Of a stretch of DNA of 64,000 nt, positions 28,456-63,060 are shown piece after piece. The stretch comes from Xaviernesmea oryzae (GTDB taxonomy: Bacteria > Pseudomonadota > Alphaproteobacteria > Rhizobiales > Rhizobiaceae): positions 434,001 through 498,000 of the forward strand of contig NZ_FXAF01000003.1 of NCBI RefSeq assembly GCF_900177415.1, written 5' to 3'. How positions within the stretch are numbered: the first letter of the stretch is position 1; each line of letters opens with the position of its first letter. Made by a program: the position numbers and the translations under genes. The notes beneath the pieces are model-generated. The model did no database searches. It was not told the DNA's origin and was given only the letters and a program-made list of their open reading frames with translations.

Positions 28456-28631
28456 CGTCAGCCTCCGGTTGGGTCAGCATCATGCCTTGAGAAGTTTCGG
28501 GTCAAAACCGATTTCGGTCAATGTAATCTACAAAAACGCTATACTAATTAGGCCGGAGCCTGGAAACAATTCTGTCACAAATGTGGCGTTTCACGAAATC
28601 GCCATCTTTGCAAGTGGAGCACTGAATGGTG

Positions 28632-29951: not shown

Positions 29952-30105
29952 GGGAGACGCTCGATCGGAAAGGAGGACGTAAGCCGCGTTCCATCCAGAT
30001 TAGAGTTTCTCTTTTTGCGCGCTAAGGAAAGTTGTTTCGCGGATCATATCGGGCCGGAGAAATTCTCTCTTCTCCCGCTCAATTCGGCGTGACAATCCGC
30101 AAATC

Positions 30106-30130
30106 TCTCTTTGCAGCCGCTGAAAAGAGA
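30106..30130. promoter_or_regulatory. 25-bp near-perfect palindrome in a divergent promoter region
   Basis: TCTCTTTGCAGC and GCTGAAAAGAGA flank a single C; 11 of 12 arm positions pair. It lies between the NtaA-type (minus) and DszC-like (plus) genes, 111 nt before the latter. A related shorter palindrome, GAGAA-A-TTCTC, is at 30057-30067. Both look like regulator sites; the regulator is unknown, though a Rrf2-type regulator is encoded nearby. Confidence 0.5.
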
Positions 30131-30240
30131 AAATTCGCTTCGTCCGGCGCCGGCAATTGAAGCTTTATTCCTTCTCACGGACCTCACGGCGTGGCTCAAT
30201 AACAGGCTTGATCCGGGAGTTGAGCCCCAGGAGTTGATCA

Positions 30241-33967: not shown

Positions 33968-34032
33968 GAGAAAGTCTCCGGGGCGTAAAAACAGATGCGG
34001 GCGAACAATCAGGCCGCCCGCCTTTTCGTCAG

Positions 34033-35649: not shown

Positions 35650-36072
35650 CGTCAGTATCCCCCAAACGGCAACTTCGGCCAGGAGGCGGAAGAGCGCGGA
35701 TTCGTCCAACACTCATGCAAGAGTGATCGCCGATGACGATATAAAATCCACTAACTTTATCGAGATACTGGATTTCTAAAGCTCCGCGCATTGCTGAAAA
35801 AAGCTACGCGATTTCCGATGGTCTTGGAGAATTTTTCACATCGGCGGCTGGTGGGAGACCGCTTTCCAAAAATTCATCCTAATCTCCCGAAAACCGGCGA
35901 AATCGGACGGAGCGAACGAAATTGCTCCGGAACCGCCATCCGGAAAAATCCCATCTCAAAATTGTTCCTCAAAACGCAATCTATAATGTCTATTGGATAA
36001 CTGGAGTAATTTAAGTTCGTGCATGGTCGCCCGACCGAAACTTGGGCTTTCGCTGCCTTCCAGGAGCTCTTC
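35650..36072. other. AT-rich divergent intergenic region
   Basis: No gene seen in these 423 nt. The region is clearly more AT-rich than its neighbours and should hold the divergent promoters for the binding protein (minus) and the SsuD-like gene (plus). A TATAAT hexamer at 35982-35987 could be a -10 for the plus-strand gene; no well-spaced -35 is evident. Confidence 0.5.
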
Positions 36073-37173
36073 ATGCAATCCGAATTCATCGGCCATACCT
36101 CCAACCGCGAGGGATCCGACATCGTCCCCGCCAGCGGTCCGGTCATAGACAAGGCCTATATCCGCAGGCATGTGCAGGCTGCGGAAGCCGCAGGGATCGA
36201 TCGCCTGCTGATCGGCCAGTTCGCGCAATGGCCCGACAACAACCAGATCGCGGCCTATGTCTTCAGCCAGACGGAAAGGATCGGTGCGCTGCTTGCCCAT
36301 CGGCCCGGCCTGATGACCCCGACGCTCGGCGCACGGCAGCTCGCGACCCTCGACCAGTTCTCCGAGGGGCGCCTGTGGGTGCATATCATCACCGGCGGCT
36401 CGGATGCCGACCAGGCCCGCGATGGCGATTTCGAGGACCACGACACCCGCTACGCCCGCACCGACGAATACCTGGCCGTGCTGAAGAAGGTCTGGGAAAG
36501 CGATGAGCCCTTCGACCATGAAGGCCGTTTCTACAAGTTCAAGGGCGCATTCAGCCAGGTGAAACCGTTCCAGAAGCCGCGCATCCCGATCTCCTTCGGC
36601 GGTTCTTCCGATGCGGCCATCGCGGTGGCCGGCAAGCACGCCGATATCTATGCGCTCTGGGGTGAGCCGCTGGACGGCGCGCGCGAGACGATCGCCAAGG
36701 TGCGCGCCGCAGCCACCGCCAACGGCCGTTCGCCCCATGACATCCGCTTCACCCTCGCCTTCCGCACCGTCGTCGCCGAGACCGAGGACGCAGCTTGGGA
36801 GAAGGCCGCCGACATCCTCCGGAAGGTGAAATCGCAGGTCGCCCGCTCGGCCGGCGGCAACGGCGAGAAACTGCCCTCGAATACCGGTTCGGTGCGGCTG
36901 CGCGAGGCCGCCAGTCGCGGCAAGGTTCTCGACAAGCGGCTGTGGACCGAAGTGGCGGAGGCAAGCGGCGCCGGCGGCAATTCCACCGCGCTCGTCGGCA
37001 CGCCGGAGCAGATCGCCGAGGCCATCCTCGATTATTACGATGCCGGCGTCTCCAACTTCCTCGTGCGCGGCTTCTACCCGACCGAGGATACCGTCACCTA
37101 CGGGCGGGACGTGGTGCCGCTCGTCAAAGCCGGAATTGCAGAACGGGAAGCCAGAAAGGTGGCCGCAGAATGA
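36073..37173 (+). CDS. FMN-dependent alkanesulfonate monooxygenase-like protein (SsuD family)
   Basis: A 366-residue luciferase-fold monooxygenase. AAEAAGIDRLLIGQF, PTLGARQLATLDQFSEGRLWVHIITGGSDADQARDGD (about residues 85-122) and FGGSSDAAIAVAGKHADIYALWGEPL match SsuD, which splits sulfonates into sulfite and an aldehyde using FMNH2. AGGAG lies 6 nt before the ATG at 36073, better than a start at 36019. The stop overlaps an amidohydrolase gene by 4 nt. No SsuE-type FMN reductase was seen in the window. Confidence 0.88.
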   Translation: MQSEFIGHTSNREGSDIVPASGPVIDKAYIRRHVQAAEAAGIDRLLIGQFAQWPDNNQIAAYVFSQTERIGALLAHRPGLMTPTLGARQLATLDQFSEGRLWVHIITGGSDADQARDGDFEDHDTRYARTDEYLAVLKKVWESDEPFDHEGRFYKFKGAFSQVKPFQKPRIPISFGGSSDAAIAVAGKHADIYALWGEPLDGARETIAKVRAAATANGRSPHDIRFTLAFRTVVAETEDAAWEKAADILRKVKSQVARSAGGNGEKLPSNTGSVRLREAASRGKVLDKRLWTEVAEASGAGGNSTALVGTPEQIAEAILDYYDAGVSNFLVRGFYPTEDTVTYGRDVVPLVKAGIAEREARKVAAE

Positions 37174-38123
37174 CAACACCGCTCGATATCGTCGACGTTC
37201 ATACGCATCTGTGGCCGCCGGCCTGGGGACCGGGGGGCAAATATGCCAAGCCCGCCAGCGGCTTCGCGCCAGAGATCTACCGCAAGATCACCACCCCCGA
37301 GGCTCTCGTGGAAGAGTTCGAGGCGGCCGGCGTGCAGCTTTCGATCGTCACGGCGACGATCGAAAGCCTGTTCGGCGCGGAAGGCCCGGTGAACTTTGCG
37401 GCCATACGCGAAGCCAACGACTGGCTGGCCACGCTTTCCCGCGATCACCGGACACTTGCCGGCTTCGGCGTGACCGATGCCTTCGCAGGGGAGGAAGGAG
37501 CCCGCGAGGCGGAGCGCGCGATCGGCGAACTCGGCCTGTCGGGGCTGGTGATCGATTCCTCACGCGACGGAAAATTCCTCGCCGACGCATCGGTCAGACC
37601 GACGCTCGAAGTGGCCGCGCACTACAGGGTGCCGGTCTTCGTGCATCCGGTCGCCCACCCGAATTCGCAGGTGCTGATCGCGGGTGCCGGCATGCTCGGA
37701 AACTCGCTCGGACGGGGCCTGATGAACGGCGTGGCCTTCCTCTCCGTCATCCAGTCGCCGCTGCTCGACGAACTGCCGGACCTCCACCTCATCTTCGCAA
37801 CCCTTGGGCTGGGCGCGATCGTGCAGGCCGCCCGCGGCGGAATTTACGGCCGCGCCGAGCGGGCGGCGGGCAAACGCCCCAACATCTATTTCGATACGAT
37901 GGGGCACGATCCGGCGATCATCCGCACGCTGACCGGCTTCTTCGGTGCCGAACGCGTGCTGGCCGGCACCGATTGGCCCATCCTCGCCGCTCTCGACCAG
38001 AAGAACCTGGCTGCGAGCCTCGCCGAAGCGGGCCTGAACGATGCGGAAGCCCGCCTGGTGGCGGGCGGCAATGCCCGGCGGCTCCTCGGCTTGCGGGAAG
38101 CGCAGGCGCAAGCGGCGGAGTAG
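37170..38123 (+). CDS. Amidohydrolase, ACMSD-like TIM-barrel family
   Basis: A 317-residue metal-dependent hydrolase or decarboxylase of the amidohydrolase_2 family. The metal motif is VDVHTHLWP (about residues 8-16), followed by VFVHPVAHP (about 154), DTMGHDP and the terminal Asp in LAGTDWPIL (about 271). It is coupled to the SsuD-like gene by a 4-nt overlap, so it may process the product of that oxidation. A strong terminator lies 13 nt after the stop. Substrate unknown. Confidence 0.88.
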   Translation: MTTPLDIVDVHTHLWPPAWGPGGKYAKPASGFAPEIYRKITTPEALVEEFEAAGVQLSIVTATIESLFGAEGPVNFAAIREANDWLATLSRDHRTLAGFGVTDAFAGEEGAREAERAIGELGLSGLVIDSSRDGKFLADASVRPTLEVAAHYRVPVFVHPVAHPNSQVLIAGAGMLGNSLGRGLMNGVAFLSVIQSPLLDELPDLHLIFATLGLGAIVQAARGGIYGRAERAAGKRPNIYFDTMGHDPAIIRTLTGFFGAERVLAGTDWPILAALDQKNLAASLAEAGLNDAEARLVAGGNARRLLGLREAQAQAAE

Positions 38124-38209: not shown

Positions 38210-39271
38210 TCAGGCCACACGCTGCGGACGGGCGAGCGGGATAACCTGTGCCTCAGCAGCCGCCGAACGCGGTACGCGGCCTTCGACCGGATGGCCTGGA
38301 TCGGTAAAGCCGGGCGTCGAGGGATGGCCGGTCGCGACCAGCCGATCGACGAGTGCCTCGTCTTCCGCGTCCAGCTTCACGTCGAGGGCACGGATGTAAG
38401 CGTCCCATTGCTCTTCGGTACGGGGGCCGGCGATCGCCGAGGTGATCAGCCGGTTGTTCAGCACCCAGGCGAGCGCGAAATCGGCGGCGGCGATGCCCCT
38501 GGCCTCCGCATGCGCGGCGATCTGCTTTGCGATGGCGATCGATTCCTCACGGAACTCCACGTCGTGCATGCGCTTGTCGCCGCGGCCGGCGCGGGTATCG
38601 GCGGCCGGCGCCTCGCCGACGTTGTATTTGCCGGTCAAGACGCCACGCGCCAGCGGGCTATAGGAGACGACACCGAGACCATAGGCGGCCGCGGCCGGCA
38701 GCTGCTCGGCTTCGGCCGTGCGGTTGACGATGTTGTAGAGCGGCTGGCTGGCGATCGGCCGGTCGATGCCGAGCTGGTCGGCAAGATGGGCAACCTCCGC
38801 GATGCGCCAGCCACGGAAATTCGAGACGCCGAAATAGCGCAGCTTTCCGGCCTTGATCAGGTCGGCGATCGCCCGCACCGGCTCCTCCAGCGGCGCATCG
38901 AAGACGGCGCGGTGGAAGTAGAGGATGTCGATGTAGTCGGTATCGAGATTGCGCAGCGAATTCTCCACCGTCTGGTAGACCCATTTGCGGGAATAGCCGC
39001 CGAGGTTCGGCCCCTTGTTGTGAGAATTGACGAACTTGGTCGCCACGACCCAGCTGTCGCGGTTCTTCTTGATGCCCCGGCCGACCACCTGCTCCGACTT
39101 GCCGTCGTGATAGACGTCGGCGGTATCGATGAAATTGATGCCCTGGTCGCGTGCCTTGTCGATGATGCGGAATGCGACATCGTCAGGCGTCTGGTTGCCG
39201 AACATCATGGCCCCCAGCGTCAGCGGCGACACCTTGAGGGCACTGCGGCCCAGATAGCGATACTCAACCAT
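38210..39271 (-). CDS. Aldo/keto reductase
   Basis: A 353-residue NADPH-dependent oxidoreductase of the YajO/Tas-type subfamily. The catalytic tetrad is visible: D49 and Y54 in FIDTADVYHDGKSE, K79 in VVATKF and H120 in DILYFHR. The NADPH-binding segment RPIASQPLYN and C-terminal SAIAGPRTEEQW are present. It is the last gene of the dppBCDF-type operon (19 nt after the final ATPase gene). It could reduce an aldehyde released from the imported compound. Confidence 0.9.
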   Translation of the reverse strand: MVEYRYLGRSALKVSPLTLGAMMFGNQTPDDVAFRIIDKARDQGINFIDTADVYHDGKSEQVVGRGIKKNRDSWVVATKFVNSHNKGPNLGGYSRKWVYQTVENSLRNLDTDYIDILYFHRAVFDAPLEEPVRAIADLIKAGKLRYFGVSNFRGWRIAEVAHLADQLGIDRPIASQPLYNIVNRTAEAEQLPAAAAYGLGVVSYSPLARGVLTGKYNVGEAPAADTRAGRGDKRMHDVEFREESIAIAKQIAAHAEARGIAAADFALAWVLNNRLITSAIAGPRTEEQWDAYIRALDVKLDAEDEALVDRLVATGHPSTPGFTDPGHPVEGRVPRSAAAEAQVIPLARPQRVA

Positions 39272-39290: not shown

Positions 39291-40235
39291 TCAGTTGATA
39301 GTGTCCGCGAAATGGCACGCGACCTGATGGCCGGGCGCAATGGAACGGAATTCGGGCTCCTCGGCGCGACAGAGATCCGTCGCGAGCGGGCAGCGGGTAT
39401 GGAACCGGCAGCCCGATGGAATATCGCTCGGGCTCGGCAGGTCGCCGCCGAGCGGGGCTGCCTGGCGTGGCCTTGCCGGATCGGGCACCGCCTCCATCAG
39501 CGCCCGCGTATAGGGATGCCGCGGATCGGACCAGAGCGTGGCATTGTCGGCGCTTTCCACGATCCGCCCGAGATACATGACCATAACCCGGTCGGCGAAA
39601 TAGCGCACCACGGAAAGATCGTGGCTGATGAAAAGATAGGAAAGGCCGAACTCCTTCTTCATCTCGACCAGCAGGTTGAGGATCTGCGCCTGGATGGAGA
39701 GGTCGAGCGCCGAGACGGGCTCGTCGCAGACGATCAGTTCCGGGTTGAGAAGCAGGGCGCGGGCGATGCCGATGCGCTGCCGCTGGCCGCCGGAGAATTC
39801 GTGCGGGTAGCGATTGATGGAATCGGCCGGCAGCCCGACCTTGGCAACGATGTCGCCGACGATCCGCCGCCGCTTGGCGCGATCCCCCGCCTTGTGCACG
39901 GCGAGTGGCGCCTCCAGGATCTCGCCGATCGTCTGGCGCGGATTGAGGGAAGCGAACGGATCCTGAAAGATCATCTGGATCGACTTGCGGACGTTCCGCA
40001 ACCGCCGCTGGTCGAGGACAGTTATATCCTCTCCCTTGAATTCGATCCTGCCGTCGGTCGGATCGACCAGCCTGAGCACCGTCTTGCCGAGCGTGGATTT
40101 GCCGCAGCCGCTTTCGCCGACAAGGCCGACCGTCTCGCCCCGTTCGACCACCAGATCGACGCCGTCGACTGCCCGCAACACGCCGTCGCGGCTCTTGTAA
40201 TGGGTCTTGAGGTCAGAGACTGAGAGCAGCGGCAT
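39291..40235 (-). CDS. Oligopeptide-type ABC transporter ATP-binding protein, DppF/OppF type
   Basis: A 314-residue ATPase. Walker A GESGCGKSTLGKT (about residues 42-54), signature FSGGQRQRIGIARAL, Walker B LIVCDEPVSALD and switch His in FISHDLSVV. The C-terminal DppF extension has GCRFHTRCPLATDLC, a Cys-rich motif that can hold an iron-sulfur cluster in this family. Start at 40235 (MPLLSV); it overlaps the DppD-type gene by 23 nt. It pairs with DppD as the heterodimeric motor. Confidence 0.92.
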   Translation of the reverse strand: MPLLSVSDLKTHYKSRDGVLRAVDGVDLVVERGETVGLVGESGCGKSTLGKTVLRLVDPTDGRIEFKGEDITVLDQRRLRNVRKSIQMIFQDPFASLNPRQTIGEILEAPLAVHKAGDRAKRRRIVGDIVAKVGLPADSINRYPHEFSGGQRQRIGIARALLLNPELIVCDEPVSALDLSIQAQILNLLVEMKKEFGLSYLFISHDLSVVRYFADRVMVMYLGRIVESADNATLWSDPRHPYTRALMEAVPDPARPRQAAPLGGDLPSPSDIPSGCRFHTRCPLATDLCRAEEPEFRSIAPGHQVACHFADTIN

Positions 40236-41211
40236 GCGGCACGGCCTTGATGGGAGAAGTGAAGGGACAGGCGACCAGGCGGTCCGGAGCCGGAACGGTG
40301 AGCTGCGGGACATGATGGCCGCAGCTCGCACGCGCTTGCGCGCATCGCGGCCGGAAAGGACAGCCCGCCTCGCCGGCGGCGGAGACGATCGAGCCGGGAA
40401 TTTCGCTGAGCGCACCGTCGCGATAGTGAAAATCGTTCTTCAGCCGCGGCGAGGCCGCGAGCAGACCGCGCGTATAGGGATGCAGCGGATTGTTGAAGAG
40501 GTCGCCGGGCAGCGCCTGCTCGACCTTGCGGCCGGCATACATGACGACCACCTTGTCGGCCCATTGCGCCACCACGCCGAGATCGTGCGTGATGAGGACC
40601 ACGGCCATCTGCAGCTCGCGCCTCAACGTGTCGAGCAGGTCGAGCACCTGCGCCTGGATGGTGACGTCGAGCGCCGTCGTCGGTTCGTCGGCGATCAGGA
40701 GCTTCGGCTTGCAGGCGACGGCGATCGCGATCATCACGCGCTGCCGCATGCCGCCGGAGAGCTGGTGCGGATAATCGTCCACCCGCTTTTCCGGCGCCGG
40801 GATGCGCACCAGCTTCAGGAGCTCGACCGCCCGCTCGCTCGCCGCCCTGCCCGACAGCCTCTCGTGAACCTTCAGCACTTCGGCGATCTGCCGGCCGATG
40901 GTCATCACCGGATTGAGGCTGGTCATCGGCTCCTGGAAGATCATCGCGATGTCGCGCCCGCGCAGGTGCCGCATCTCGCGCGCGTCGAGCTTCAGGAGGT
41001 CGCGCCCGCCAAAGGCGATACGACCGCTGGCCACCTTCGCCGCGCGTGGCAGAAGTTGCATCAGCGCCAGCGCGGTGAGCGACTTTCCGGACCCGGATTC
41101 GCCGACGATTGCCAGCGTCTCGCCCTGCCCGATGTCGAAGGAGAGATCGCGGACGGGTTCTGCGCGCGGAAAGCGGATGGTGAGATTGTCGACCTGAAGA
41201 AGCGGTGCCAT
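40213..41211 (-). CDS. Oligopeptide-type ABC transporter ATP-binding protein, DppD/OppD type
   Basis: A 332-residue ATPase. Walker [11 protein letters not shown] (about residues 36-45), the DppD-type [22 protein letters not shown] region, signature [17 protein letters not shown], Walker [13 protein letters not shown] and switch His in LITHDLGVV. The C-terminal CPFRPRC...C motif is present. It starts 3 nt after the permease gene and overlaps the DppF-type gene. Confidence 0.92.
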
Positions 41212-41214
41212 GGG

Positions 41215-42219
41215 TCAGCGGTCCTGCGAGAAGCGAGGGTTGAGGGCATCGTTGAGCCCGTCGCCGATGAGGTTGAGGGCAAGCACCGTGAAGACGATCG
41301 CGAGTCCCGGCAGCGCGGTGAGATACCATGCGGTGCGGACGAGCTCGCGCCCGGTGCCGATCATCGAGCCCCAGCTCACCACGTTGGGATCGCCGAGCCC
41401 CATGAAGGACAGCGCCGATTCCATCAGGATCGCGGTGGCGACCATGACCGACGACGTGACGATAATCGGCGGCAGCGCGTTCGGCAGGATCTCGCGGAAG
41501 ATGATGCGCATGTGGCCGTAACCGAGGCTGCGGGCGGCCATGACGAAATCCTTCTCGCGGATGGCGCGGAACTCGGCGCGCGTCAGCCGCGCCACCGTCG
41601 GCCACGAAATGACGGCGATCGCCAGCGTCACGGTCGTCGCGGAAGGCTGGGCGATCGCCACCAGCACGACGAGCAGCACGAAGCTCGGCAGCGTCTGGAA
41701 GATTTCGATCAGCCGCACCAGCGCATCGTCGATCCAGCCGCCGAAATAACCGGCGACCGACCCGACCAGGACGCCGAAGGTGAGACCGAGGGCGGTTGCC
41801 GTCAGGCCGACGAAGAGCGAGATGCGGGAACCGTGCAATATGCCGGCCAGCACGTCGCGGCCAAGCGAATCCGTGCCGAGCGGAAAATCCGGATTCTGGC
41901 CCGGCCATAGGAAGGGCCGCCCCACCATGGAAAGAGGGTCGTCGGGATAAAGGATCGGCGCGATGAAGGCGATGATGATGACGAGCGCCAGAAACCCCGT
42001 ACCGAACAGGGCGTTCGGATTGGACAGGAAAACCTTGAGCGCCCGCCTGCCATTGGTGACGGCGACGGCCGAACTCGACTGCGAGCGCGCATCCGGCGCC
42101 TTCATGTTGGACCAGGCCGGATCCGCCGGAGAGGAAGGCGCGACCGGCTCCGCCTCGATCGGGGCGATCTGGCGCTCGGCCGCAACACCACGCAGCGTAC
42201 CGATATCGGTGGTGGACAT
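41215..42219 (-). CDS. Oligopeptide-type ABC transporter permease, DppC/OppC type
   Basis: A 334-residue permease. A long hydrophilic N-terminal tail (about 75 residues) is followed by the first helix, and HPLG-like GTDSLGRDVLAGILHGSRISL (about residues 130-150) is typical of DppC. The coupling loop is MAARSLGYGHMRIIFREILPN (about 230-250). The start overlaps the DppB-type stop by 1 nt (TGATG), implying coupled translation. Confidence 0.92.
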   Translation of the reverse strand: MSTTDIGTLRGVAAERQIAPIEAEPVAPSSPADPAWSNMKAPDARSQSSSAVAVTNGRRALKVFLSNPNALFGTGFLALVIIIAFIAPILYPDDPLSMVGRPFLWPGQNPDFPLGTDSLGRDVLAGILHGSRISLFVGLTATALGLTFGVLVGSVAGYFGGWIDDALVRLIEIFQTLPSFVLLVVLVAIAQPSATTVTLAIAVISWPTVARLTRAEFRAIREKDFVMAARSLGYGHMRIIFREILPNALPPIIVTSSVMVATAILMESALSFMGLGDPNVVSWGSMIGTGRELVRTAWYLTALPGLAIVFTVLALNLIGDGLNDALNPRFSQDR

Positions 42220-43205
42220 CAGCGGGCTCCAATACGGGGGTCGAGCCAGGCGTGGACGAGGTCCACGGCGGCATTGGCGATGATGACGAGAAGCGAGGAT
42301 AAAAGCAGGATGCCGAGCAGCACCGTGAAATCGCGGCCCATCACCGCCTCGAAGGCAAGCCGCCCGAGGCCGGGCCAGCTATAGACGGTCTCCACCACCA
42401 CGGCACCGCCGAGCATGCCGCCGATATGCATGCCGGCCATGGTGGTGATCGGGATCAGCGCATTGCGCAGGATATGCCGCGCCGTGACGCCGAAAGGTGT
42501 CAGGCCCTTCGCATAGGCCGTACGGACGAAATCCTGGTTCTTGACCTCGAGCATCGAGGCGCGCGTCAGCCGGGCATAGATCGCGACGTAAAAGAGCGCC
42601 AGGGAAGTTGCCGGCAGCACCATGTAGCGGGCCTTGTCGAGAAGCGCCGGCCAGCCGGTGAGCCGCGATCCGATGGTCGCCGCCCCGCCGCTTGGCAGCC
42701 AGCCGAGCTTGACGGAGAAGAAGACGATCAGCATCAGGCCGATCCAGAAGCTCGGGATCGAATAAAAGAGCAGCGAGAAGATCGACAAAAGCCGGTCGGG
42801 GATGCGGCCGGCAAAGGTCGCCATCAACGAACCGAGAATGACGCCGAGCAGAATGGCGATCAAAAGCGCCACCGCCATCAAGGTGAGCGTGCCCGGCAGG
42901 CGTTGCGCGATGAGATCGGCGACCGGCATGCCATAACGCGGCGAAAAGCCGAGGCTGAAATGCGCCAGGTTGTTGAGATAATGCCCCAACTGCACGAGCA
43001 CGGGATTGTCGAGCCCGAAGCGCGAGCGCAGCGCCGCCATGCTCTCCTCGGTCGCCGAACCCGCCTCGCCGGCCATCACGTCGGCGGCATCGCCGGGCGC
43101 GAGCTGGAGCAGGAAGAAATTCAGGATGACGATCCCGAGCACGGTCGGGATCGCCTGCAGCAAAGTGCGTCGCAGTGTTCGTCCAATTCTCACCAGCGCC
43201 GGCAT
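42219..43205 (-). CDS. Oligopeptide-type ABC transporter permease, DppB/OppB type
   Basis: A 328-residue permease and the first gene of the dppBCDF-AKR operon. The first helix (AIPTVLGIVILNFFLLQLAPGDAA) and LGFSPRYGMPVADLIAQRLPGTL (about 92-115) are classic for DppB; the coupling loop is RTAYAKGLTPFGVTARHILRNALIP. No binding-protein gene lies in this operon; the family-5 proteins at 34033 and 54730 are the local candidates. It is divergent from the desulfinase-like operon across 318 nt, so the two may be regulated together. Confidence 0.92.
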   Translation of the reverse strand: MPALVRIGRTLRRTLLQAIPTVLGIVILNFFLLQLAPGDAADVMAGEAGSATEESMAALRSRFGLDNPVLVQLGHYLNNLAHFSLGFSPRYGMPVADLIAQRLPGTLTLMAVALLIAILLGVILGSLMATFAGRIPDRLLSIFSLLFYSIPSFWIGLMLIVFFSVKLGWLPSGGAATIGSRLTGWPALLDKARYMVLPATSLALFYVAIYARLTRASMLEVKNQDFVRTAYAKGLTPFGVTARHILRNALIPITTMAGMHIGGMLGGAVVVETVYSWPGLGRLAFEAVMGRDFTVLLGILLLSSLLVIIANAAVDLVHAWLDPRIGAR

Positions 43206-43329
43206 GGATGTCGTCTCTTCACTTCAACAATTCGCCCGAACGGTTCCTGGGGATCGCGAACCGAAACCCTCGGCGCTTGCGATCAGTCGGGCGTCCAATG
43301 ATTTTGATAGTTGACTAATTCTATAGGCT

Positions 43330-43357
43330 TTGTCAAACCTGTTTTGGTAAATATAAC
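43330..43357 (+). promoter_or_regulatory. Candidate promoter of the desulfurisation operon
   Basis: TTGTCA (43330-43335) and TATAAC (43352-43357) are spaced 16 nt and point toward the first desulfinase-like gene at 43524. They lie in the AT-rich 318-nt divergent region 43206-43523, which holds no gene. Confidence 0.45.
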
Positions 43358-43523: not shown

Positions 43524-44564
43524 ATGACGCTCAGAAACACGATCTCGCAGATCTGGTATACCCGCTGCCCCGTGCCCACCCCCGTCGGCCTGGCCACCCA
43601 GCTCGGCCTGCTCGATGAGGCCTTTGCAAAAGAGGGCATCACGCTCAATTCGATCATCGACAGCAAGGACCGGGCGATCCGATCCAGCCATTTCGATCAT
43701 CACCTGCAGTATTCGTTCCGCCACGGCGGCAATGTCCCGCCGATCCGAGCGCGCTCGGAAGGCAATCCGACCCGGCTTGCCGGCATCACCTGGACCGACG
43801 AATTCCAGGCGATCGTCACGCTGCCGCAAACCGGCATCAAGACGACGCGCGATCTCCTCGGCCGCCGCTTCGGCATCGCGCGCCGCCCGCCCGGCATCGT
43901 CGATTTCATGGCCGCGACGGCGCTGAAGGGCCTCGTCTCCGCCCTGTCGCTCGAGGGACTGACGCATAAGGATGTCGAGATCGTCGATATTCCGCTGCCC
44001 GACTCCGTGCTCGACAACCGTGAAGGCCCACAACTCTACGGGCTTCGCAACCGGCAGGCCTATGGTCCCGAAATCGCAGCCCTGCTGCGTGGCGAAGTGG
44101 ACGCGATCTACGTAAAAGGCACGCCCGGCATCAACGTCGCCAATCTCTTCGCCACCCATACGGTCAGCGAATTCGGCTTCCACCCCGATCCGAAGATCCG
44201 CATCAACTCGGGTTCCCCGCGCATTCTGACCGTCGACGAGCGGCTGGCGGAGGACCGGCCGGATCTCGTGGCAAAGCTCATCGAAACCCTGAAGAAGGCG
44301 AGCGCCTGGGCGGAAAGCCATCCGGACGAGGTACGCCGTTTCGTCGCCCGCGAAGTCGGCGCATCGGAGGAAGTGGTCGCGGCCGCCAATGGCCCGGATC
44401 TTCATCGGCATCTTGGTATCGGGCTCGAACCGGAATTGGTCGACGCCATCGGCCATTACAAGGATTTCCTGCACGAATGGGGCTTCCTTGCATCGAATTT
44501 CGATATCGGGGAATGGATCGACCGCCGTCCCTGGGCGCTTATCGAAACTCCCGCCGCCGCCTGA
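43524..44564 (+). CDS. DszB-like sulfinate desulfinase (SsuA/NMT1 fold, no signal peptide), copy 1
   Basis: A 346-residue protein with the fold of ABC sulfonate-binding proteins but no signal peptide, so cytoplasmic. It keeps the catalytic triad of DszB (2'-hydroxybiphenyl-2-sulfinate desulfinase, C27-H60-R70): WYTRCPVPTP gives C15, and SHFDHHLQYSFRHGGNVPPI gives H56 and R66, with the same 10-residue His-Arg spacing and the following Gly-Gly and Pro-Pro. DszB removes sulfite from an aromatic sulfinate. Automatic annotation would probably say 'ABC substrate-binding protein'. AGGAGAGG precedes the ATG at 43524. The DszC-like gene follows after 12 nt. Confidence 0.8.
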   Translation: MTLRNTISQIWYTRCPVPTPVGLATQLGLLDEAFAKEGITLNSIIDSKDRAIRSSHFDHHLQYSFRHGGNVPPIRARSEGNPTRLAGITWTDEFQAIVTLPQTGIKTTRDLLGRRFGIARRPPGIVDFMAATALKGLVSALSLEGLTHKDVEIVDIPLPDSVLDNREGPQLYGLRNRQAYGPEIAALLRGEVDAIYVKGTPGINVANLFATHTVSEFGFHPDPKIRINSGSPRILTVDERLAEDRPDLVAKLIETLKKASAWAESHPDEVRRFVAREVGASEEVVAAANGPDLHRHLGIGLEPELVDAIGHYKDFLHEWGFLASNFDIGEWIDRRPWALIETPAAA

Positions 44565-44576
44565 CCGGAGAGCCCG

Positions 44577-45806
44577 ATGACACAAACCATCGATTTCGCG
44601 CCGGTGATCGCCAGGGCCGAGGAACTGGGACAGCGTTTCGCGCTGACCGCCGGGCATTATGACGCGACAGGCGAATTCCCGTTCGCCAATTTCGATGCGC
44701 TCCACGAGGCGGGCCTGCTCGGTCTCGTGACCGCGCCCGAACACGGCGGCCTCGGAGGCGGCCTCGACCAAGCGCTGGCGGTCGTCTCGGCCATTGCCCG
44801 CGGCGAGCCTTCCACCGCGCTGGTGCTCTCCATGCACTACAACCAGCATTATTCGATCCGGGCTTCCGGCAAGTGGCCGAAACACCTGGTCGAGCGGGTC
44901 ACCAGGGCCAATCGCGACGGCGTGGCGCTCATCAATGCCGCGCAGGTGGAGCCACGCGTCGGCTCGCCCTCGCACGGCGCCCTGCCGGAAACCATAGCCC
45001 GCAGGGTCGGCAACCAGTGGCGGATCACCGGCCACAAGACCTATGCGACCGGCATTCCGCTGCTGCGCTGGGTCTTAGTACTCGCCGTCACCGACGAGCC
45101 GGAACCGCGGCTCGGTTCCTTCCTCGTGCCGACCTCGGCAGACGGCATCCGGGTCGAGAAGACCTGGAACGCCACCGGCATGCGTGCCACCAACAGCGAC
45201 GATCTGATCCTCGACGACGTGGCGATCCCGCTGGAGGACGTGCTCGACATCGCCCCCGCCAGCGAGGGACTGAGGCGCGACGAGCGCATGGGCGCCTGGT
45301 ATTTCAGCCTCGTCCCGGCGATCTACGACGGTGCCGCCCGCGGCGCACGCGACTGGCTGCTCGACTTCACCACGACGCGGGCGCCGGCCAGCCTCGGCGC
45401 GCCGCTTTCGACCGTGCCGCGCATTCAGGACGGTCTTGGCCAGATCGAGGTCTGGCTGACGGTCAACCGCCGGCTGCTCCGCTCGATCGCCGAGGACTTC
45501 GATGCCGGTCGGCCCTTCGGTCCGGATGCGGCAGCCGTCAAGCACACGGTCATCGAGAATGCGATTGCGGTCACCACGCTGGCGCTGGAGCTCGGCGGCA
45601 ATCCCGGCATCAGCCGCGACAATCCACTGGAACGCCACCACCGCGACGCGCTTTCCGGCAAGGCGCACGCCCCGCAGAACAATCTCGTCCGCACCATGCT
45701 CGCCAAAGCGGCGATCGGCCGCCACGCGGCCACCCCCGCCGTGCCGCGGGAACCCGTGCCCGTGCGCGCCGGCCCGCAACCCCGCCTCGCCGCCGTCGGC
45801 CGCTAG
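44577..45806 (+). CDS. DszC-like monooxygenase (acyl-CoA dehydrogenase fold)
   Basis: A 409-residue flavoprotein of the acyl-CoA dehydrogenase superfamily. N-terminal helical domain with HEAGLLGLVTAPEHGGLGGG (about residues 43-62), middle beta domain with QWRITGHKTYATGIPLLRW (flavin contact), and a C-terminal four-helix domain. The conserved NPLERHHRDA near residue 347 replaces the R-x-x-R-N segment of DszC. No CoA-binding features are obvious. DszC-type enzymes use FMNH2 to oxidise an organic sulfur atom. Being flanked by two desulfinase-like genes, it probably makes or processes their sulfinate precursor. A Pro/Arg-rich tail ends the protein. Confidence 0.8.
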   Translation: MTQTIDFAPVIARAEELGQRFALTAGHYDATGEFPFANFDALHEAGLLGLVTAPEHGGLGGGLDQALAVVSAIARGEPSTALVLSMHYNQHYSIRASGKWPKHLVERVTRANRDGVALINAAQVEPRVGSPSHGALPETIARRVGNQWRITGHKTYATGIPLLRWVLVLAVTDEPEPRLGSFLVPTSADGIRVEKTWNATGMRATNSDDLILDDVAIPLEDVLDIAPASEGLRRDERMGAWYFSLVPAIYDGAARGARDWLLDFTTTRAPASLGAPLSTVPRIQDGLGQIEVWLTVNRRLLRSIAEDFDAGRPFGPDAAAVKHTVIENAIAVTTLALELGGNPGISRDNPLERHHRDALSGKAHAPQNNLVRTMLAKAAIGRHAATPAVPREPVPVRAGPQPRLAAVGR

Positions 45807-45820
45807 CCAAGGAGCCCGCC

Positions 45821-46855
45821 ATGTCCACTCTCGATTCCGTCTGGTATACGCGCTGCCCGGCGCCGACGCCGCTGTCGATCGCCCACCAGCTCGGCTGGGT
45901 CGACCGGCAATTCCAGGCATCCGGCATTTCCGTGCGTTCGATCCGCGACAGCAAGGACCCTGCGGTCCGGCAGAGCCATTTCACCCATGCGCTCGACTAT
46001 TCCTTCCGCCAGGGAGGTAATATTCCGCCGATCTGGGCGCGGGCCGGCGGGCGCAAGACCCGTGTCGTCGGCATCACGACAACCGACGAATTCCAGGCGA
46101 TCATCGCACTCCCCTCCTCCGGCATCGCCAGGGGCGCCGATCTCAAGGGCCGGCGCATCGGCGTGCCGCGCAAGCCGCAGGAGAAGCTCGTCGATTTCCA
46201 GCGCGCCACGGCGCTCAAGGGGATCGTCTCCGCCCTGTCGCTGGAGGGGCTGAGCCATGCCGATGTCGAACTCGTCTATCTCGACAGCGCCGAGGCAACC
46301 CTGATCGAGCGCGGCAATGCTGCCTTTCTCGGCCTGAAGCGCCGCTATCCCTACGGTGACGAGCTCCTGGCGCTTGCCCGCGGGGATATCGACGCCTTCT
46401 TCGTCAAGGGCGCGGAAGGCGTAGTCCTGGCCAATCAGATCGGTGCCGTCGTGGTGTCGGAATTCGGCTTCCATCCGGACCCGAAGATCCGCATCAACAA
46501 CGGCACGCCGCGGCCGCTGACGGTCGATGCCCGTTTCTTCGACGAACATTTCGATCTGGTCGCCGATCTGGTCGCCACCGTCGGCCGGGTCGCCGCGTGG
46601 GCTGAGGAGAACCCGCATGATGCGGTGCGCTTCATCGCCAACGAAATCGGCGTCGGCGAGGATGCCATCCGGGCCGCAAACGGCCCGGATGTGCACAGGC
46701 ATCTGACGCTCTCGCTCGACGACGAGCAGATCGCCGCCTTCGACCATTTCAAGCAATTCCTGCTCGAATGGGACTTCATCCCGGCAGATTTCGACATCTC
46801 TGGCTGGATAGACCGCGGACCGCTGGAAGCGGCCAATCGGCGGGCGGCGGCATGA
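45821..46855 (+). CDS. DszB-like sulfinate desulfinase (SsuA/NMT1 fold, no signal peptide), copy 2
   Basis: A 344-residue paralogue of the protein at 43524. WYTRCPAPTP gives C12 and SHFTHALDYSFRQGGNIPPI gives H53 and R63, again with 10 residues between His and Arg and 41 between Cys and His, as in copy 1. There is no signal peptide. Shared segments include TDEFQAI, ATALKG(L/I)VSALSLEGL and VSEFGFHPDPKIRIN, so the two arose by duplication. AAGGAG lies 9 nt before the ATG at 45821; earlier in-frame sequence only shadows the monooxygenase gene. It may act on a different substrate or form a heterodimer with copy 1. Confidence 0.8.
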   Translation: MSTLDSVWYTRCPAPTPLSIAHQLGWVDRQFQASGISVRSIRDSKDPAVRQSHFTHALDYSFRQGGNIPPIWARAGGRKTRVVGITTTDEFQAIIALPSSGIARGADLKGRRIGVPRKPQEKLVDFQRATALKGIVSALSLEGLSHADVELVYLDSAEATLIERGNAAFLGLKRRYPYGDELLALARGDIDAFFVKGAEGVVLANQIGAVVVSEFGFHPDPKIRINNGTPRPLTVDARFFDEHFDLVADLVATVGRVAAWAEENPHDAVRFIANEIGVGEDAIRAANGPDVHRHLTLSLDDEQIAAFDHFKQFLLEWDFIPADFDISGWIDRGPLEAANRRAAA

Positions 46856-47721
46856 GCCCGGCCCCGATCCTCGTGACCGGCGCGACCGGCCGGCTGGGGC
46901 GGCTTGTCGTCGAGCGGCTGATCGCGCTGGAACAGCCGGTTCGCGTCTTCACGCGCCGGCCGGAGACCGCGCGAAAGCTCTTCGGTAAGGCGGTGCAGAT
47001 CGCGCTTGGGGAATTCGCCGACGGAACCTCACTCGAGGCGGCCCTGCGCGGCGCCGAACGGCTTCTCCTGCTGTCGCCGATCAGTGCGACGCTTGTCGCG
47101 GACCAGATCGCCGTCGCCAATGCGGCGGCAGCTTCCGGCGCCCGCCGCATCGTCAAGATTTCCGGCTCCGACTGGACGATCGACCCGCCCGGCAGTTCCA
47201 TCTCGGGCGACGCGCATGCCGCCGTGGAACGCCATCTCGGCAAGCTTCCGCTCGAACGGGTTTGCCTGCGCCCCAATGCCTGGATGCAGGTGTCGCTCGC
47301 CAACACGATAAGGCAGGTGCTGTCCGGCAATCCCGTCTTTGCAGCCAATCCCGATGCCGGGGTCGGCTATATCGACGCCCGCGACATCGCCGATGTCGCC
47401 GTCCATCAATTGCTCGCCGATCAGGTTGCCGGCGAGACGCTCAATCTGACCGGTCCTCACGTGGCGACGCCCCGACAGATCGCCGGCCTCCTCTCGGCGG
47501 CTCTCGGGCGCCCGGTCGCCGCGATCGGCAAGACGCCGGCCGCTGCCGCTCCGGGCGCGGATTTCGAACAGCGTGCCGTCGCGCAATTTGCCACGTTGAT
47601 CGCCGCCGGACGGGCGGCGGTGGCAACAGGTGTCGTCCAATCCCTTCTTCACCGCTCACCACGCAGCGTCGAAGCCTTCATTTCCGAACATCTGGTTTCC
47701 GAGGCGGCGCTTGCCGGGTAA
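46852..47721 (+). CDS. NmrA-like NAD(P)-binding protein (atypical SDR)
   Basis: A 289-residue protein with the Rossmann motif VTGATGRLGRLVVERL (about residues 7-22) and VRVFTRRPE. The KISGSDW strand and VGYIDARDIADVAVHQL are typical of NmrA/QorB-type atypical SDRs, which bind NAD(P) and either reduce quinones or act as redox sensors. The start overlaps the desulfinase copy 2 stop by 4 nt. It could be a reductase for the flavin enzymes around it, but it lacks a flavin-reductase signature, so this is a guess. Confidence 0.85.
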   Translation: MSPAPILVTGATGRLGRLVVERLIALEQPVRVFTRRPETARKLFGKAVQIALGEFADGTSLEAALRGAERLLLLSPISATLVADQIAVANAAAASGARRIVKISGSDWTIDPPGSSISGDAHAAVERHLGKLPLERVCLRPNAWMQVSLANTIRQVLSGNPVFAANPDAGVGYIDARDIADVAVHQLLADQVAGETLNLTGPHVATPRQIAGLLSAALGRPVAAIGKTPAAAAPGADFEQRAVAQFATLIAAGRAAVATGVVQSLLHRSPRSVEAFISEHLVSEAALAG

Positions 47722-47726
47722 TATTC

Positions 47727-48998
47727 ATGACTATTCCCTTCGTTGACATCGCCATCATCGGTGGAGGTCCGGGCGGCCTGGCACTCGCCCAAGGACTGAA
47801 GAAGAACGGCATCGACGCCGCGGTTTTCGAGCGCGACCCGGTCCGCGCCGATTACGTGCAGGGTTTTCGCATGCGCATCCGCCAACGCGGCATCGATGCG
47901 CTTAAAGCCAATCTGCCGACACACCTTTTCGATGCCTTCATCGATACGCTGGGCCTTGCGCCCACCGAAAACCTCGTTCTCGACGAGCAGTTCAACCGCA
48001 TCGATGGCGCTGGCAACGGCAGCGGCGAGCCGGAAGACACCCATATCGAGAAATCCGTAAGCCGCATCACGCTGCGGCAGATCCTGTTGTCCGGTCTCGA
48101 CGGCATCTTCCACCCGGGCAAGTGTTTCGAGCGCTACGAGAACCTGCGTGACGGAACAGTGGTCGCCCACTTCGCCGACGGGACCGCGGTGCGCGCCAGC
48201 CTGCTGGTCGGTGCCGATGGCGCGGGATCCAAGGTGCGCCGGCAGCTTCTGCCGGAGCTCGGAAGCATCGACACGGGCGTTCGCCGCCTGGCCGGCAAGA
48301 TCACGCTCGAAGACGCGGCTCGCTACGGCATCTCCCCGCTGCTGACCGATTTCAACACCCATATCCGGCCGCGTGACGGCCGCACCTTGATGATCACCAG
48401 CCACCGGGTCGATCCCGCGGCTTACGCCCGGCATGGCCTGATCGGTGCGGAAGATCCGGGCCACCGCGACATCCCCGGCTTCCATTTCAACAACACGACC
48501 AGCTATGCTTGGTGGAATACCGCCTATGAGGCAGGGGAACTCGGCCCTGACGAGGTTCTCGAACATCTCGACGGCGCGGCATTGCTGGACGCGCTCCTCG
48601 CCCGCATCGCCCGCTGGGACGAGCGTATCCTGAAGCTCATCCGCCATACCGATCCCTCGACGGTCGCCTTCCTCAAGGTGAAGAGCTCCACGCCGGGAGC
48701 CGTCTGGCAGACCGGCCCCGTCACCCTGCTCGGCGATGCCATCCACGCGATGACCTATTTTCGCGCGCTCGGCGGCAATACGGCGCTCTACGACACGGGG
48801 CTGCTCGTTCCAGAACTTGTCGCCGCGCGTCGCCAGGGCAAGCCGCTGCTTGCCGCGGTTCAGGATTACGAGAACGCCATGCGAGACCATGGATACGAGG
48901 CGGTCCGCTCCTCGCTTTCGGCCATGCAGCGCAATATCGGAGCCGGCCGGCCGCTGAAGGCCGAGGCCGCTCCCCAACGGTTCCGGGAACACACATGA
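47727..48998 (+). CDS. FAD-dependent monooxygenase (aromatic hydroxylase family)
   Basis: A 423-residue class A flavoprotein monooxygenase. GxGxxG is in IAIIGGGPGGLALAQGL (about residues 8-24), the second FAD region is LLVGADGAGSKVRRQLLP (about 158-175) and GD motif VTLLGDAIHAMTYFRALGGN (about 333-352). Family members hydroxylate aromatic rings with NAD(P)H. Here Met replaces the common Pro after HA in the GD motif. It follows the NmrA-like gene by 5 nt and overlaps the DszA-like gene by 4 nt. It could open or hydroxylate the ring left after sulfur removal. Confidence 0.88.
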   Translation: MTIPFVDIAIIGGGPGGLALAQGLKKNGIDAAVFERDPVRADYVQGFRMRIRQRGIDALKANLPTHLFDAFIDTLGLAPTENLVLDEQFNRIDGAGNGSGEPEDTHIEKSVSRITLRQILLSGLDGIFHPGKCFERYENLRDGTVVAHFADGTAVRASLLVGADGAGSKVRRQLLPELGSIDTGVRRLAGKITLEDAARYGISPLLTDFNTHIRPRDGRTLMITSHRVDPAAYARHGLIGAEDPGHRDIPGFHFNNTTSYAWWNTAYEAGELGPDEVLEHLDGAALLDALLARIARWDERILKLIRHTDPSTVAFLKVKSSTPGAVWQTGPVTLLGDAIHAMTYFRALGGNTALYDTGLLVPELVAARRQGKPLLAAVQDYENAMRDHGYEAVRSSLSAMQRNIGAGRPLKAEAAPQRFREHT

Positions 48999-50302
48999 CC
49001 AGTTCAAAACGCAAGCTCAATCTCAACGTGGGCATCAATACGACCGGCTATCTCGGCAACGCATGGCGATACCGCACAGGCACGCGCCACGACATCACCG
49101 ATCCCGATTATTATCGCCGGCTGACCGAGCTTGCCCACAAGGGCCGGTTCGATGCGGTATTCTTTTCCGACCACCCCGCGCTGATGACCGACCCGAACGG
49201 GCGGCCCTTCCACACGATCGACCCGCTGATGCTGTGCACGGCGCTCGCAGCGCAAGTGCCGGACATCGGTTTCGTCGCCACGATGACCTCAAGCTACAAT
49301 TCGCCCTACAATTTCGCGCGGCGCACCCAGTCGGCGGATATCATTTCCGGCGGCCGTATGATCATCAACGTCGTCTCGTCGTTCAATCCGAACGTCTCCG
49401 CCAATTTCGGCTCGGCCCCGCTGCCACCGCGCAGTGAACGCTATGCCAGGGCAACCGAGTTCCTCGACGTCGCCAAGAAGCTCTGGTCGAGCTGGGACTG
49501 GGAGCGGGAGGGCGAAGTTCCCGAAAACCGCTTCTGGGATGCGTCGAGCGCCCGCGCGATCGACCACGAAGGCGCCTATTTCAGCGTCAAGGGGCCGCTC
49601 AACGTGCCGCGCGGCCCGCAGGGCCATCCGGTTCTGGCGCAGGCCGGCGCCTCCGAGGGAGGCATCGATCTTGCCGCACGCCACGGCGAGATCATCTACT
49701 GCAATATTCTCTCGCGGCCGGCCGGCCAGACCTTCGGCAAGAAGGTTCGGGACCGCGCAGCGGCGCTTGGACGCGACCCCGCCGGCATCCGGATCGTGCC
49801 CGGCCTCGTCGTCATCCTCGGCGAAACGCGCAAGGAGGCGCTGCGCAAGCACGAGCTTTTCAGCGGGGCCGGTTCCGAGGACGGTCTGATCGCCCGGTTC
49901 GTGAAGGAAAACGGCATCGATCCGGGGGGATTTGATCCCGATGCCGTTCTGGACCCGGAGCGCTTCCTTCCCGATCCGAACCGGCTGCAGGCCGTCGGCA
50001 TGGGTCTCGGACTCTACGATCTTCTCACGCATGAAAACCTGACCGCGCGGCAGGCGATCCGCCGCTCCGAGGGCCACCACCGGCTGCTGCTCGGAACGCC
50101 CGAGGAAGTGGCCGACGCGATCGTCGATCTCTGGGCCGACGGCACGGTGGACGGCTATACGCTGCAGCCGCCGCGCGCCCCGGACGACATCGAGGAATTC
50201 ATCGAAAAGGTGGTGCCGATCCTGCAGGACCGCGGCGTCTACCGCACGCGCTATGAGGAAAGGACCGTCCGCGAACGGTATGGCCTGCCCTATCCTGCCT
50301 GA
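48995..50302 (+). CDS. FMN-dependent monooxygenase, NtaA/SnaA/DszA family (copy 2)
   Basis: A 435-residue luciferase-fold monooxygenase. Features are NLNVGINTTGYLGNAWRY, GRFDAVFFSDHPAL, IGFVATMTSSYNSPYNFARR, SGGRMIINVVSSFNPNVSANFG and VLAQAGASEGGIDLAARHGEIIY. DszA of the 4S pathway belongs to this clade and converts a sulfone to a sulfinate, the substrate class of DszB. It closes the operon that starts at 43524, giving DszB-like, DszC-like, DszB-like, NmrA-like, FAD monooxygenase and DszA-like genes in one unit. Confidence 0.88.
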   Translation: MTSSKRKLNLNVGINTTGYLGNAWRYRTGTRHDITDPDYYRRLTELAHKGRFDAVFFSDHPALMTDPNGRPFHTIDPLMLCTALAAQVPDIGFVATMTSSYNSPYNFARRTQSADIISGGRMIINVVSSFNPNVSANFGSAPLPPRSERYARATEFLDVAKKLWSSWDWEREGEVPENRFWDASSARAIDHEGAYFSVKGPLNVPRGPQGHPVLAQAGASEGGIDLAARHGEIIYCNILSRPAGQTFGKKVRDRAAALGRDPAGIRIVPGLVVILGETRKEALRKHELFSGAGSEDGLIARFVKENGIDPGGFDPDAVLDPERFLPDPNRLQAVGMGLGLYDLLTHENLTARQAIRRSEGHHRLLLGTPEEVADAIVDLWADGTVDGYTLQPPRAPDDIEEFIEKVVPILQDRGVYRTRYEERTVRERYGLPYPA

Positions 50303-59557: not shown

Positions 59558-59692
59558 CGTCGTTCCCCACGAGCCGAGGCGCACTCACAAGGCCGCCACT
59601 TCCGGCTCCTTGATTTTGATAAAGGCGAAAGACGAGCGAGACCTGCCGCAGGCCGCGCTCGTCTCTCCTGTCAGCCGATGCCGGACATTCCG

Positions 59693-60724: not shown

Positions 60725-60753
60725 GACTTTCGTTCCCTTTGCTGATCTTGTGG

Positions 60754-61578: not shown

Positions 61579-61579
61579 C

Positions 61580-62341: not shown

Positions 62342-62411
62342 AAGTTCCTCCTTTCCCGTTTCCTGCAAAACGAGAGCCTGCCCTTGCGGGTGGTTGACGA
62401 TGGTTCAGACG

Positions 62412-63056: not shown

Positions 63057-63060
63057 GCGC

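Follow-up and report, generated by a model that had tools for sequence, protein, structure and literature searches.

Two distant DszB homologs, putative sulfinate desulfinases, in a flavin monooxygenase gene cluster of Xaviernesmea oryzae

Organization of the gene cluster

The window analyzed here is a stretch of 64,000 nucleotides from Xaviernesmea oryzae. It contains six open reading frames on the forward strand (g1 to g6; Table 1), whose tight junctions (from g1 to g6: 12 nt, 14 nt, a 4-nt overlap, 5 nt, and a 4-nt overlap) agree with the co-directional run described in the original prediction. Divergently arranged is an ABC transporter of the peptide type, which has its own binding protein (SBP_bac_5) that carries a signal sequence. 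A true SfnB is encoded nearby (552 bits; cut-off 430.9), and the sulfur-type neighborhood with flavin monooxygenase relatives that had been noticed around g1 and g3 is indeed present. The SsuD-like gene also lies close to the cluster.

Table 1. Genes and features of the cluster and its surroundings (positions within the window).
Feature	Position	Strand	Length	Description
g1	43524-44564	+	346 aa	DszB-type protein, C15/H56/R66, without evident signal peptide
g2	44577-45806	+	409 aa	acyl-CoA-dehydrogenase-fold flavoprotein, probably flavin monooxygenase; not close to DszC
g3	45821-46855	+	344 aa	second DszB-type protein, C12/H53/R63, without evident signal peptide
g4	46852-47721	+	289 aa	NmrA-like NAD(P)-binding protein
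g5	47727-48998	+	423 aa	FAD_binding_3 (group A) monooxygenase
g6	48995-50302	+	435 aa	NtaA/DmoA-family FMN-dependent monooxygenase; nearest solved relative EDTA monooxygenase
Conserved element	43310..43337	.		divergent promoter region
ABC permease 1	42219..43205	-		divergent peptide-class importer; conserved in relatives
ABC permease 2	41215..42219	-		named from annotated relatives
ABC ATPase 1	40213..41211	-		named from annotated relatives
ABC ATPase 2	39291..40415	-		start codon uncertain; named from annotated relatives
Aldo/keto reductase	38210..39271	-		last gene of divergent operon
Amidohydrolase	37170..38123	+		Amidohydro_2
SsuD-like monooxygenase	36019..37173	+		luciferase-type
SBP_bac_5 binding protein	34033..35712	-		likely partner of peptide-class importer

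The DszB-type proteins g1 and g3

In a phmmer search of the PDB, DszB was the top match of both g1 (4.6e-13) and g3 (1.2e-12), and its Cys, His, and Arg columns align with those of the two proteins. Profile comparison against the PDB ranked DszB (3.2e-39) far ahead of SsuA (9e-6). Homology to the DszB of Mycobacterium yongonense extends over the full length at 25–28% identity, and g1 and g3 are 53% identical to each other. The Cys-His-Arg set previously picked out in both proteins was recovered, with His and Arg 10 residues apart as in DszB (H60-R70), and the positions of S25 and G73 of DszB are occupied by Thr and Gly, respectively; this Gly is also found in 8 of 26 binding-protein controls. 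The suggested comparison of predicted structures with DszB was carried out at the level of the fold, and models of good confidence (pLDDT 89.7 for g1 and 91.5 for g3) recovered the DszB fold in both cases: substrate-bound DszB (2de3) was the top Foldseek match (3.3e-21 and 2.4e-20; TM 0.75–0.76), followed by SsuA and TauA.

Among 125 aligned family rows, which include DszB itself (L063), two genes counted twice, and a partial match (L143) that may not belong to the family, the Cys-His-Arg set is complete in 107. The Cys is retained in 108, while the sulfinate-holding Arg (124) and the Gly (125) are near invariant. None of 26 SsuA-like controls from the source genome has C, H, or R in the DszB columns; these counts leave out DszB-like rows of up to 300 aa, L057 with its wrong N-terminal frame, and one short control. 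Taken with the alignment to DszB, this shows that the residue match is not due to chance: by sequence, g1 and g3 are distant DszB homologs that have kept the predicted catalytic residues. Because members without the Cys are common (17/125), not every family member need be an enzyme. Ser replaces the Cys in some relatives, nine (Para)Burkholderia rows additionally have Ile for the His, and Arg and GG are kept, as expected if binding is useful on its own. Such relatives, together with a binding-protein fold for which SsuA and TauA come next in the list, would also suit g1 and g3 as cytoplasmic, non-catalytic binders of sulfinates or sulfonates (sensor, carrier, or delivery proteins), with the Cys as a ligand or redox switch. 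We regard this as quite unlikely, since g1 and g3 themselves retain the full set and the Cys prevails in the family but not in the controls.

Public records name proteins of this type ABC transporter substrate-binding proteins, and the SsuA model TIGR01728 matches g1 and g3 with 71 and 73.5 bits. These scores lie below the cut-off of 163.5, which says little because none of the 31 matches in the source genome passes it. However, the annotated function as ordinary ABC sulfonate-binding proteins is very improbable and was dropped: g1 and g3 carry the catalytic residues and show no evident signal peptide, and the divergent importer already has a proper SBP_bac_5 protein; moreover, no partner of the SsuBC type was observed within the operon. 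The Cys of g1 and g3 sits only 12–15 residues after the start, so that a signal peptide would hardly fit in front of it. N-terminal hydrophobicity, taken as the best 12-residue Kyte–Doolittle mean in the first 45 aa, is 1.16 for g1 and 0.58 for g3, compared with at least 1.46 in 25 of 27 SsuA-model matches of the source genome. The measure is a crude proxy: high values are also reached by proteins with no obvious signal sequence (at least L084 and L085), and 11 of 106 DszB-like proteins fall within the control range. That g1 and g3 are signal-less and of DszB type, as originally proposed, is supported.

Partner enzymes

The partner enzymes resemble their proposed Dsz counterparts less than had been supposed. 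The designation of g2 as DszC-like holds only at the level of the flavoprotein superfamily, since it reaches 43.6 bits against the DszC model (cut-off 850) and does not qualify as a DszC ortholog. Among solved structures it matches 5z8t with 226 bits and TdsC with 47 bits, and a literature search on the PDB codes 5GJ7/5Z8T, its nearest solved relative, yielded nothing useful on function. The second-best NCBIfam model for g2 is that of 3-sulfinopropanoyl-CoA desulfinase (NF042439; 104.3 bits), raising the question of whether g2, rather than g1 and g3, removes the sulfur as a desulfinase of the acyl-CoA dehydrogenase fold. This score is far below the cut-off of 600 and is equaled by other acyl-CoA dehydrogenase models (105.9 and 103.6 bits); it therefore reflects superfamily background, and we discarded the assignment as highly improbable. 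No CoA ligase gene was noted in passing near the cluster.

For g6, membership of the DszA clade was too strong a claim. The protein passes the NtaA/DmoA subfamily cut-off (379.9 versus 279.7), and the solved structure closest to it is that of EDTA monooxygenase (312 bits), followed by YtnJ/MoxC, whereas DszA/BdsA reach 193 bits; among solved relatives it is thus nearer to EmoA, MoxC, and NtaA than to DszA. No flavin reductase was found among the genes searched. Relatives carry an additional gene that separates g5 from g6; it was considered for this role and rejected, as in L061 it encodes another NAD(P)-binding/NmrA-like protein.

The affinities of g6 and the peptide class of the importer would fit DszB-fold enzymes with another chemistry, for example on a non-sulfur substrate or in a Thi5-like reaction, or else desulfinases of aliphatic sulfinates that an EmoA/MoxC-type g6 produces from thioethers or amino-acid conjugates. 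Thi5 does appear in the fold list, but its best matches (3.6e-12 and 8.8e-13) are far weaker than those of DszB and it is absent from the sequence and profile searches, so that the Thi5-like variant was dropped. The near invariance of the Arg and Gly in the family also speaks against this alternative, which we consider unlikely overall.

Conservation and modularity

The order g1-g2-g3, followed by g6, is conserved in all 18 other stretches that contain both paralogs (Rhizobiaceae, Devosia, Chelatococcus). One of these stretches is a symbiotic plasmid, and some of them lack g4 or g5 at its usual position. In a tree built from 61 of 111 rows (below 90% mutual identity) and 5 of 27 controls, g1 and g3 fall into two separate clades (SH-aLRT 99 each); the branch leading to DszB is long (3.32) and its placement unsure. 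Each clade also occurs without the other, although assignment by identity thresholds (56 and 62%) could miss more distant copies. The term duplicated desulfinases is therefore misleading, and the pair of g1 and g3 resembles a union of two modules more than the product of a recent duplication. These modules are not strictly kept, because a g2-like gene accompanies g3 in two of the six stretches with g3 but without g1. In Sinorhizobium meliloti 1021 and 2011, both model strains, g2 is broken up over two reading frames, and the route is therefore dispensable there. Whole copies of g1 to g6 are present in the Ensifer canadensis stretch L061 and in the S. medicae stretches L016 and L060, the last two with a broken SsuD-like gene. 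The family is patchy (7/397 genomes); in most genomes the best five candidates were scored, and copy numbers are accordingly lower bounds. Related DszB-type forms are present in Burkholderia and methylotrophs.

Divergent promoter region

The conserved promoter element (43310..43337) recurs at a few other sulfur-type operons. Its core ASTARWTNNATAGRC, which was narrowed after two of its sites had been seen, has three exact matches in the source genome, all beside sulfur-type operons, a result that is partly circular; when one mismatch is allowed, the core has fewer matches than its reversed control (6 versus 25). A fairer comparison is that with the pattern ACTAAWTNNATAGRC, which has 8 exact matches in 39 genomes outside G000. 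The 23 further genomes from the source genus account for five of these, all adjoining sulfur-type genes: two belong to the cluster itself, one to an ortholog of an operon used in choosing the pattern, and two to a new SfnB/LLM site in two genomes. The three matches in the distant genome G007 are not located by sulfur-type genes. The reversed pattern has two matches, neither with a match to the sulfur query set. This evidence is small and partly post hoc. A general GTCTAT-N7-ATAGAC motif was abandoned, as it is no commoner than its reversed control (46 versus 71, per strand). Among the papers listed in a literature search, none named a regulator for the element.

Proposed function

We consider it probable, from sequence and predicted structure, that g1 and g3 work in the cytoplasm as DszB-type sulfinate desulfinases and act with flavin monooxygenases in scavenging organosulfur compounds. 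The divergent importer would bring in the compound. Its oxidation and the opening of a C-S bond to yield a sulfinate would fall to g2 and g6, possibly assisted by g5 and the SsuD-like enzyme. Either g1 or g3 could then replace the sulfinate group by hydrogen, with the Cys as proton donor and the sulfinate held in place by Arg and His (for the DszB mechanism, see PMC6100217), and the sulfite set free would enter assimilation. Since g1 with g2, and g3 with g4 and g6, form partly separable modules, the two putative desulfinases probably serve two different sulfinates. Desulfinase activity, substrates, order of steps, and control by sulfur starvation are what we infer here; for the substrate, our first but tentative guess is a thiophenic compound such as benzothiophene. 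Of the 4S-like pathway of the original prediction, the DszB-type proteins g1 and g3 are supported; a plain 4S route has no place for g4 (NmrA) and g5 (FAD_binding_3).

A wider reading is possible, though doubtful. The proteins may represent a sizeable unrecognized family of cytoplasmic DszB-type desulfinases in Proteobacteria, hidden under the annotation of sulfonate-binding proteins and often working in sets. The rhizobial set would consist of two intact enzymes, joined from two modules and in some cases carried by symbiotic megaplasmids; the set of Burkholderia, Methylovorus, and a third lineage would pair an intact enzyme with a binding-only Cys-to-Ser partner. The rhizobial cluster might then provide the genetic basis, so far missing, for benzothiophene desulfurization by Sinorhizobium and also serve normal sulfur scavenging in soil and rhizosphere. 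DszB is a slow enzyme that is usually discussed in connection with fuel-desulfurizing bacteria. If the proposed function is correct, desulfination would be a commoner soil reaction, with operons in Rhizobiaceae, Devosia, and Chelatococcus and related forms in Burkholderia and methylotrophs; the misannotation as binding proteins would be corrected, fresh candidate desulfinases besides DszB would be on offer, and candidate genes for the phenotype of strain KT55 (see below) would be at hand. A literature search, with subscription journals largely outside its scope, retrieved no paper on proteins of this type as desulfinases.

Comparison with known systems

SsuA and TauA share the fold of g1 and g3, but the Cys-His-Arg set is missing from the 26 controls of this type, most of which have a hydrophobic N terminus. 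With DszB of Rhodococcus IGTS8 (PDB 2de2-2de4), both proteins share homology, the Cys/His/Arg set, Ser or Thr plus Gly, the fold, and an N terminus with no evident signal peptide; differences are the two paralogs per operon, the other partner enzymes, and the low sequence identity. Like the cluster, dszABC on the M. yongonense plasmid combines an LLM monooxygenase, a desulfinase, and a flavoprotein of the acyl-CoA dehydrogenase fold in one operon. The gene order differs, however, and the cluster has two predicted desulfinases, NmrA and FAD_binding_3 genes, a dedicated importer, and a g2 that is not close to DszC. For bdsABC of Gordonia terrae C-6 and for Sinorhizobium sp. KT55, PMC3868597 gives a route of oxidation, C-S cleavage to a sulfinate or sultine, and desulfination; benzothiophene desulfurization by KT55 is attributed to Tanaka (2001) in citing work. 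The order of steps proposed for the cluster would resemble this route, and the cluster is common in the genus of KT55 among the plasmids searched.

Classification of g1 and g3

The six ORFs of the run g1–g6, their gaps and the Cys, His and Arg residues named in the original prediction are all present in the window sequence. The two candidate desulfinases, g1 and g3, share 53% identity, and a search of their own 6.07-Mb genome with g1 (E 0.001) matched only these two places. Pfam recognized NMT1/THI5 alone in both proteins (33.5 and 34.0 bits, above a cut-off of 20.5). The NCBIfam model SsuA_fam stayed below half its cut-off. DszB was the best match of both in a phmmer search of all PDB sequences (g1, 4.6e-13; g3, 1.2e-12), followed by SsuA for g3 only (0.0028), and a family profile of 43 rows scored DszB at 3.2e-39 vs. 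9e-6 for SsuA. In the phmmer alignment C15/C12 (g1/g3) stand under C27 of DszB, H56/H53 under H60 and R66/R63 under R70; a Thr occupies the position of S25, and the second Gly of a GG pair that of G73.

The proposed comparison of predicted structures agreed with this placement: DszB was the top Foldseek match of both AlphaFold2 models (pLDDT 89.7 for g1 and 91.5 for g3), the first entry being 2de3, the substrate-bound C27S protein (3.3e-21 and 2.4e-20, respectively; TM 0.75–0.76), with TauA or SsuA as runners-up at approximately 1e-15. Each model contains one long low-confidence stretch (g1 163–177, g3 161–175), which, judged from the alignment, would lie at about the region of DszB loop 187–204, reported to become ordered upon substrate binding (PMC6100217).

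Among 125 DszB-like rows (including DszB itself, and with two genes counted twice), the Cys position is occupied by Cys in 108, Ser in 16 and Ala in one; His is conserved in 113, Arg in 124 and the full set in 107, as well as in 39 of 46 representatives below 80% identity. None of 26 SsuA-model matches from the same genome has Cys, His or Arg at these positions, and eight have the Gly corresponding to G73. An N-terminal hydrophobicity proxy (g1 1.16, g3 0.58) was at least 1.46 in 25 of 27 controls, certain high-scoring ones being without an obvious signal sequence; it splits the groups less cleanly than the residues, since values of 1.46 or more also occur in 11 of 106 DszB-like proteins. In a quickly built tree, g1 and g3 belong to separate clades (support 99 each) within a clade of support 100, and DszB, on a long branch, groups with the DszB-like proteins rather than with the binding proteins (support 88). 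Membership of g1 and g3 in the DszB type is well supported by these sequence and fold comparisons, and catalysis is likely and unproven.

Partner enzymes and genomic context

The g2 product has an acyl-CoA-dehydrogenase fold, and literature searching found no published function for its best solved relatives, 5z8t (226 bits) and 5gj7 (225 bits). Acyl-CoA dehydrogenases commonly carry a C-terminal YEGT motif with the catalytic Glu. Because RDALSGKAHAPQNN stands at this place in g2 (positioned by eye), a monooxygenase would be likelier than a dehydrogenase. The g4 and g5 products are NmrA-like and FAD_binding_3 proteins, respectively. The divergent operon comprises genes for a pair of permeases, a pair of ATPases and an aldo/keto reductase.

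Features of the window and of related stretches
Sequence	Positions	Strand	Feature
Window	27506–31458		1-Cys peroxiredoxin, NtaA-type monooxygenase and true SfnB, adjoining; extend the sulfur-type region
Window	32745–33970	-	Acyl-CoA-dehydrogenase/SfnB-like gene broken across two frames (outer limits by eye)
Window	34033–35712		SBP_bac_5 protein; accompanies the divergent operon in most relatives
Window	43524–50302	+	g1–g6
Window	58223–59584	-	Further luciferase-type monooxygenase
Window	59693–63825		ORFs beside the preceding gene; from their starts, a putative nicotinate-degradation set
L035	6225–7298		Ser-for-Cys paralogue adjoining intact copy
L053	10847–11875		Ser-for-Cys paralogue adjoining intact copy
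L145			Ser-for-Cys paralogue adjoining intact copy
L067 (Rhizobium leguminosarum plasmid)	7956–9122		Distant DszB-like protein retaining Cys, His and Arg

In relatives, the gene at the position of the broken SfnB-like one is intact. A DszB-like gene of Methylovorus has a peroxiredoxin nearby that resembles, by eye, the 1-Cys enzyme of the window.

Organization and distribution in relatives

A search of genome contigs yielded 48 loci, to which plasmid and genome loci were added. Both clades occur in 19 stretches, the window and 18 others that are not independent (L016 and L060 represent one species), and the order g1–g2–g3, later g6, is kept in all. Within this set, four Devosia stretches (L019, L022, L023, L029) lack g4 at its usual position, and the search found no g5 in L021 and L024. 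A g2 of 50% identity or more is present in all 26 g1-clade loci and immediately follows g1 in 24 of them. Four long stretches (L026, L028, L064, L065) have g1 and g2 without g3; L003–L005 also have g1 and g2, and are too short to judge the absence of g3. Conversely, g3 occurs without g1 in six stretches, with g4 directly downstream in four, g6 in four (on the opposite strand in L034 and L059) and a g2-like gene in two. As the two clades are distinct in the tree and also occur apart, the cluster is better read, with exceptions, as two old modules joined.

The family is patchy, with matches in 7 of 397 genomes from the order at E 1e-20 and in 8 of 398 genomes from the phylum at E 1e-25, the window's own genome counted in each. 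Among 72,556 plasmid records 95 matched g1 (E 1e-5), 51 from Sinorhizobium and 22 from Rhizobium. Nine (Para)Burkholderia loci encode three paralogues each, one of which has Ser in place of Cys and Ile in place of His; intact and Ser forms also occur together in two Methylovorus loci and as tandem pairs in four genomes of family f87, and one Devosia stretch has a partial Ser form. Such Ser-for-Cys paralogues are the natural equivalent of the C27S mutant of DszB. The L067 gene is flanked by two 2-hydroxyacyl-CoA dehydratase genes on one side and two genes for dehydratase activases on the other, with rhodanese and SulP genes next, a context that possibly indicates another sulfur chemistry.

A putative control element

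The g1/permease intergenic region contains a 28-bp element, GTTGACTAATTCTATAGGCTTTGTCAAA. It scores 54–64 of 64 weighted points in all 25 scanned stretches that cover this region, some of one species (the window, L012–L029, L060, L061, L064, L065, L068, L069), always between the permease and g1 or the neighboring binding-protein gene; a degenerate form of the element matches the genome exactly at one site. The core is also found upstream of operons C5 (SsuA-like protein, ABC genes, LLM) and C9 (flavoprotein, two SsuA-like proteins), where the ABC, LLM and flavoprotein names were assigned by eye. In relatives, it lies in addition between genes for SfnB-like and LLM proteins. This recurrence suggests a common sulfur-related control, with small numbers and partly post hoc.

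Links to Sinorhizobium and the 4S pathway

Sinorhizobium meliloti pSymA carries the divergent operons sma2085–sma2077 (five genes) and sma2087–sma2101 (eight genes), which are both up-regulated on deletion of pSymB 635,940–869,642; the word sulfur is absent from the main text of that report (PMC5940162). The sequence records examined do not annotate these locus tags; by their layout, the two operons would correspond to the divergent operon and the g1–g6 cluster, respectively. In strains 1021 and 2011 (L069 and L068, respectively) a five-gene minus operon faces the plus operon, and the g2 of the latter is broken into two frames near codon 114. Gap size and analogy with relatives point to an extra gene between g5 and g6, and the split g2 together with this gene would account for the total of eight. 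No match to the SsuD-like gene flanking the cluster was found in these two stretches, and with g2 split both strains are therefore poor hosts for pathway tests. Sinorhizobium sp. KT55 converts benzothiophene via the sulfone to o-hydroxystyrene, for which the available text of PMC3868597 names no genes, and also uses dimethyl sulfone (PMC6630823). Hypothetically, the g1–g6 cluster could be responsible for the benzothiophene conversion.

The original prediction had likened the run to the 4S pathway, with g2 and g6 as DszC- and DszA-type enzymes. The identity of these monooxygenases did not hold, as g2 reaches only 47 bits with TdsC, and g6, which exceeds the NtaA/DmoA family cut-off, matches EmoA best (312 bits vs. 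218 for MoxC/YtnJ and 193 for the DszA-type BdsA); in outline, however, the analogy to the 4S pathway stands.
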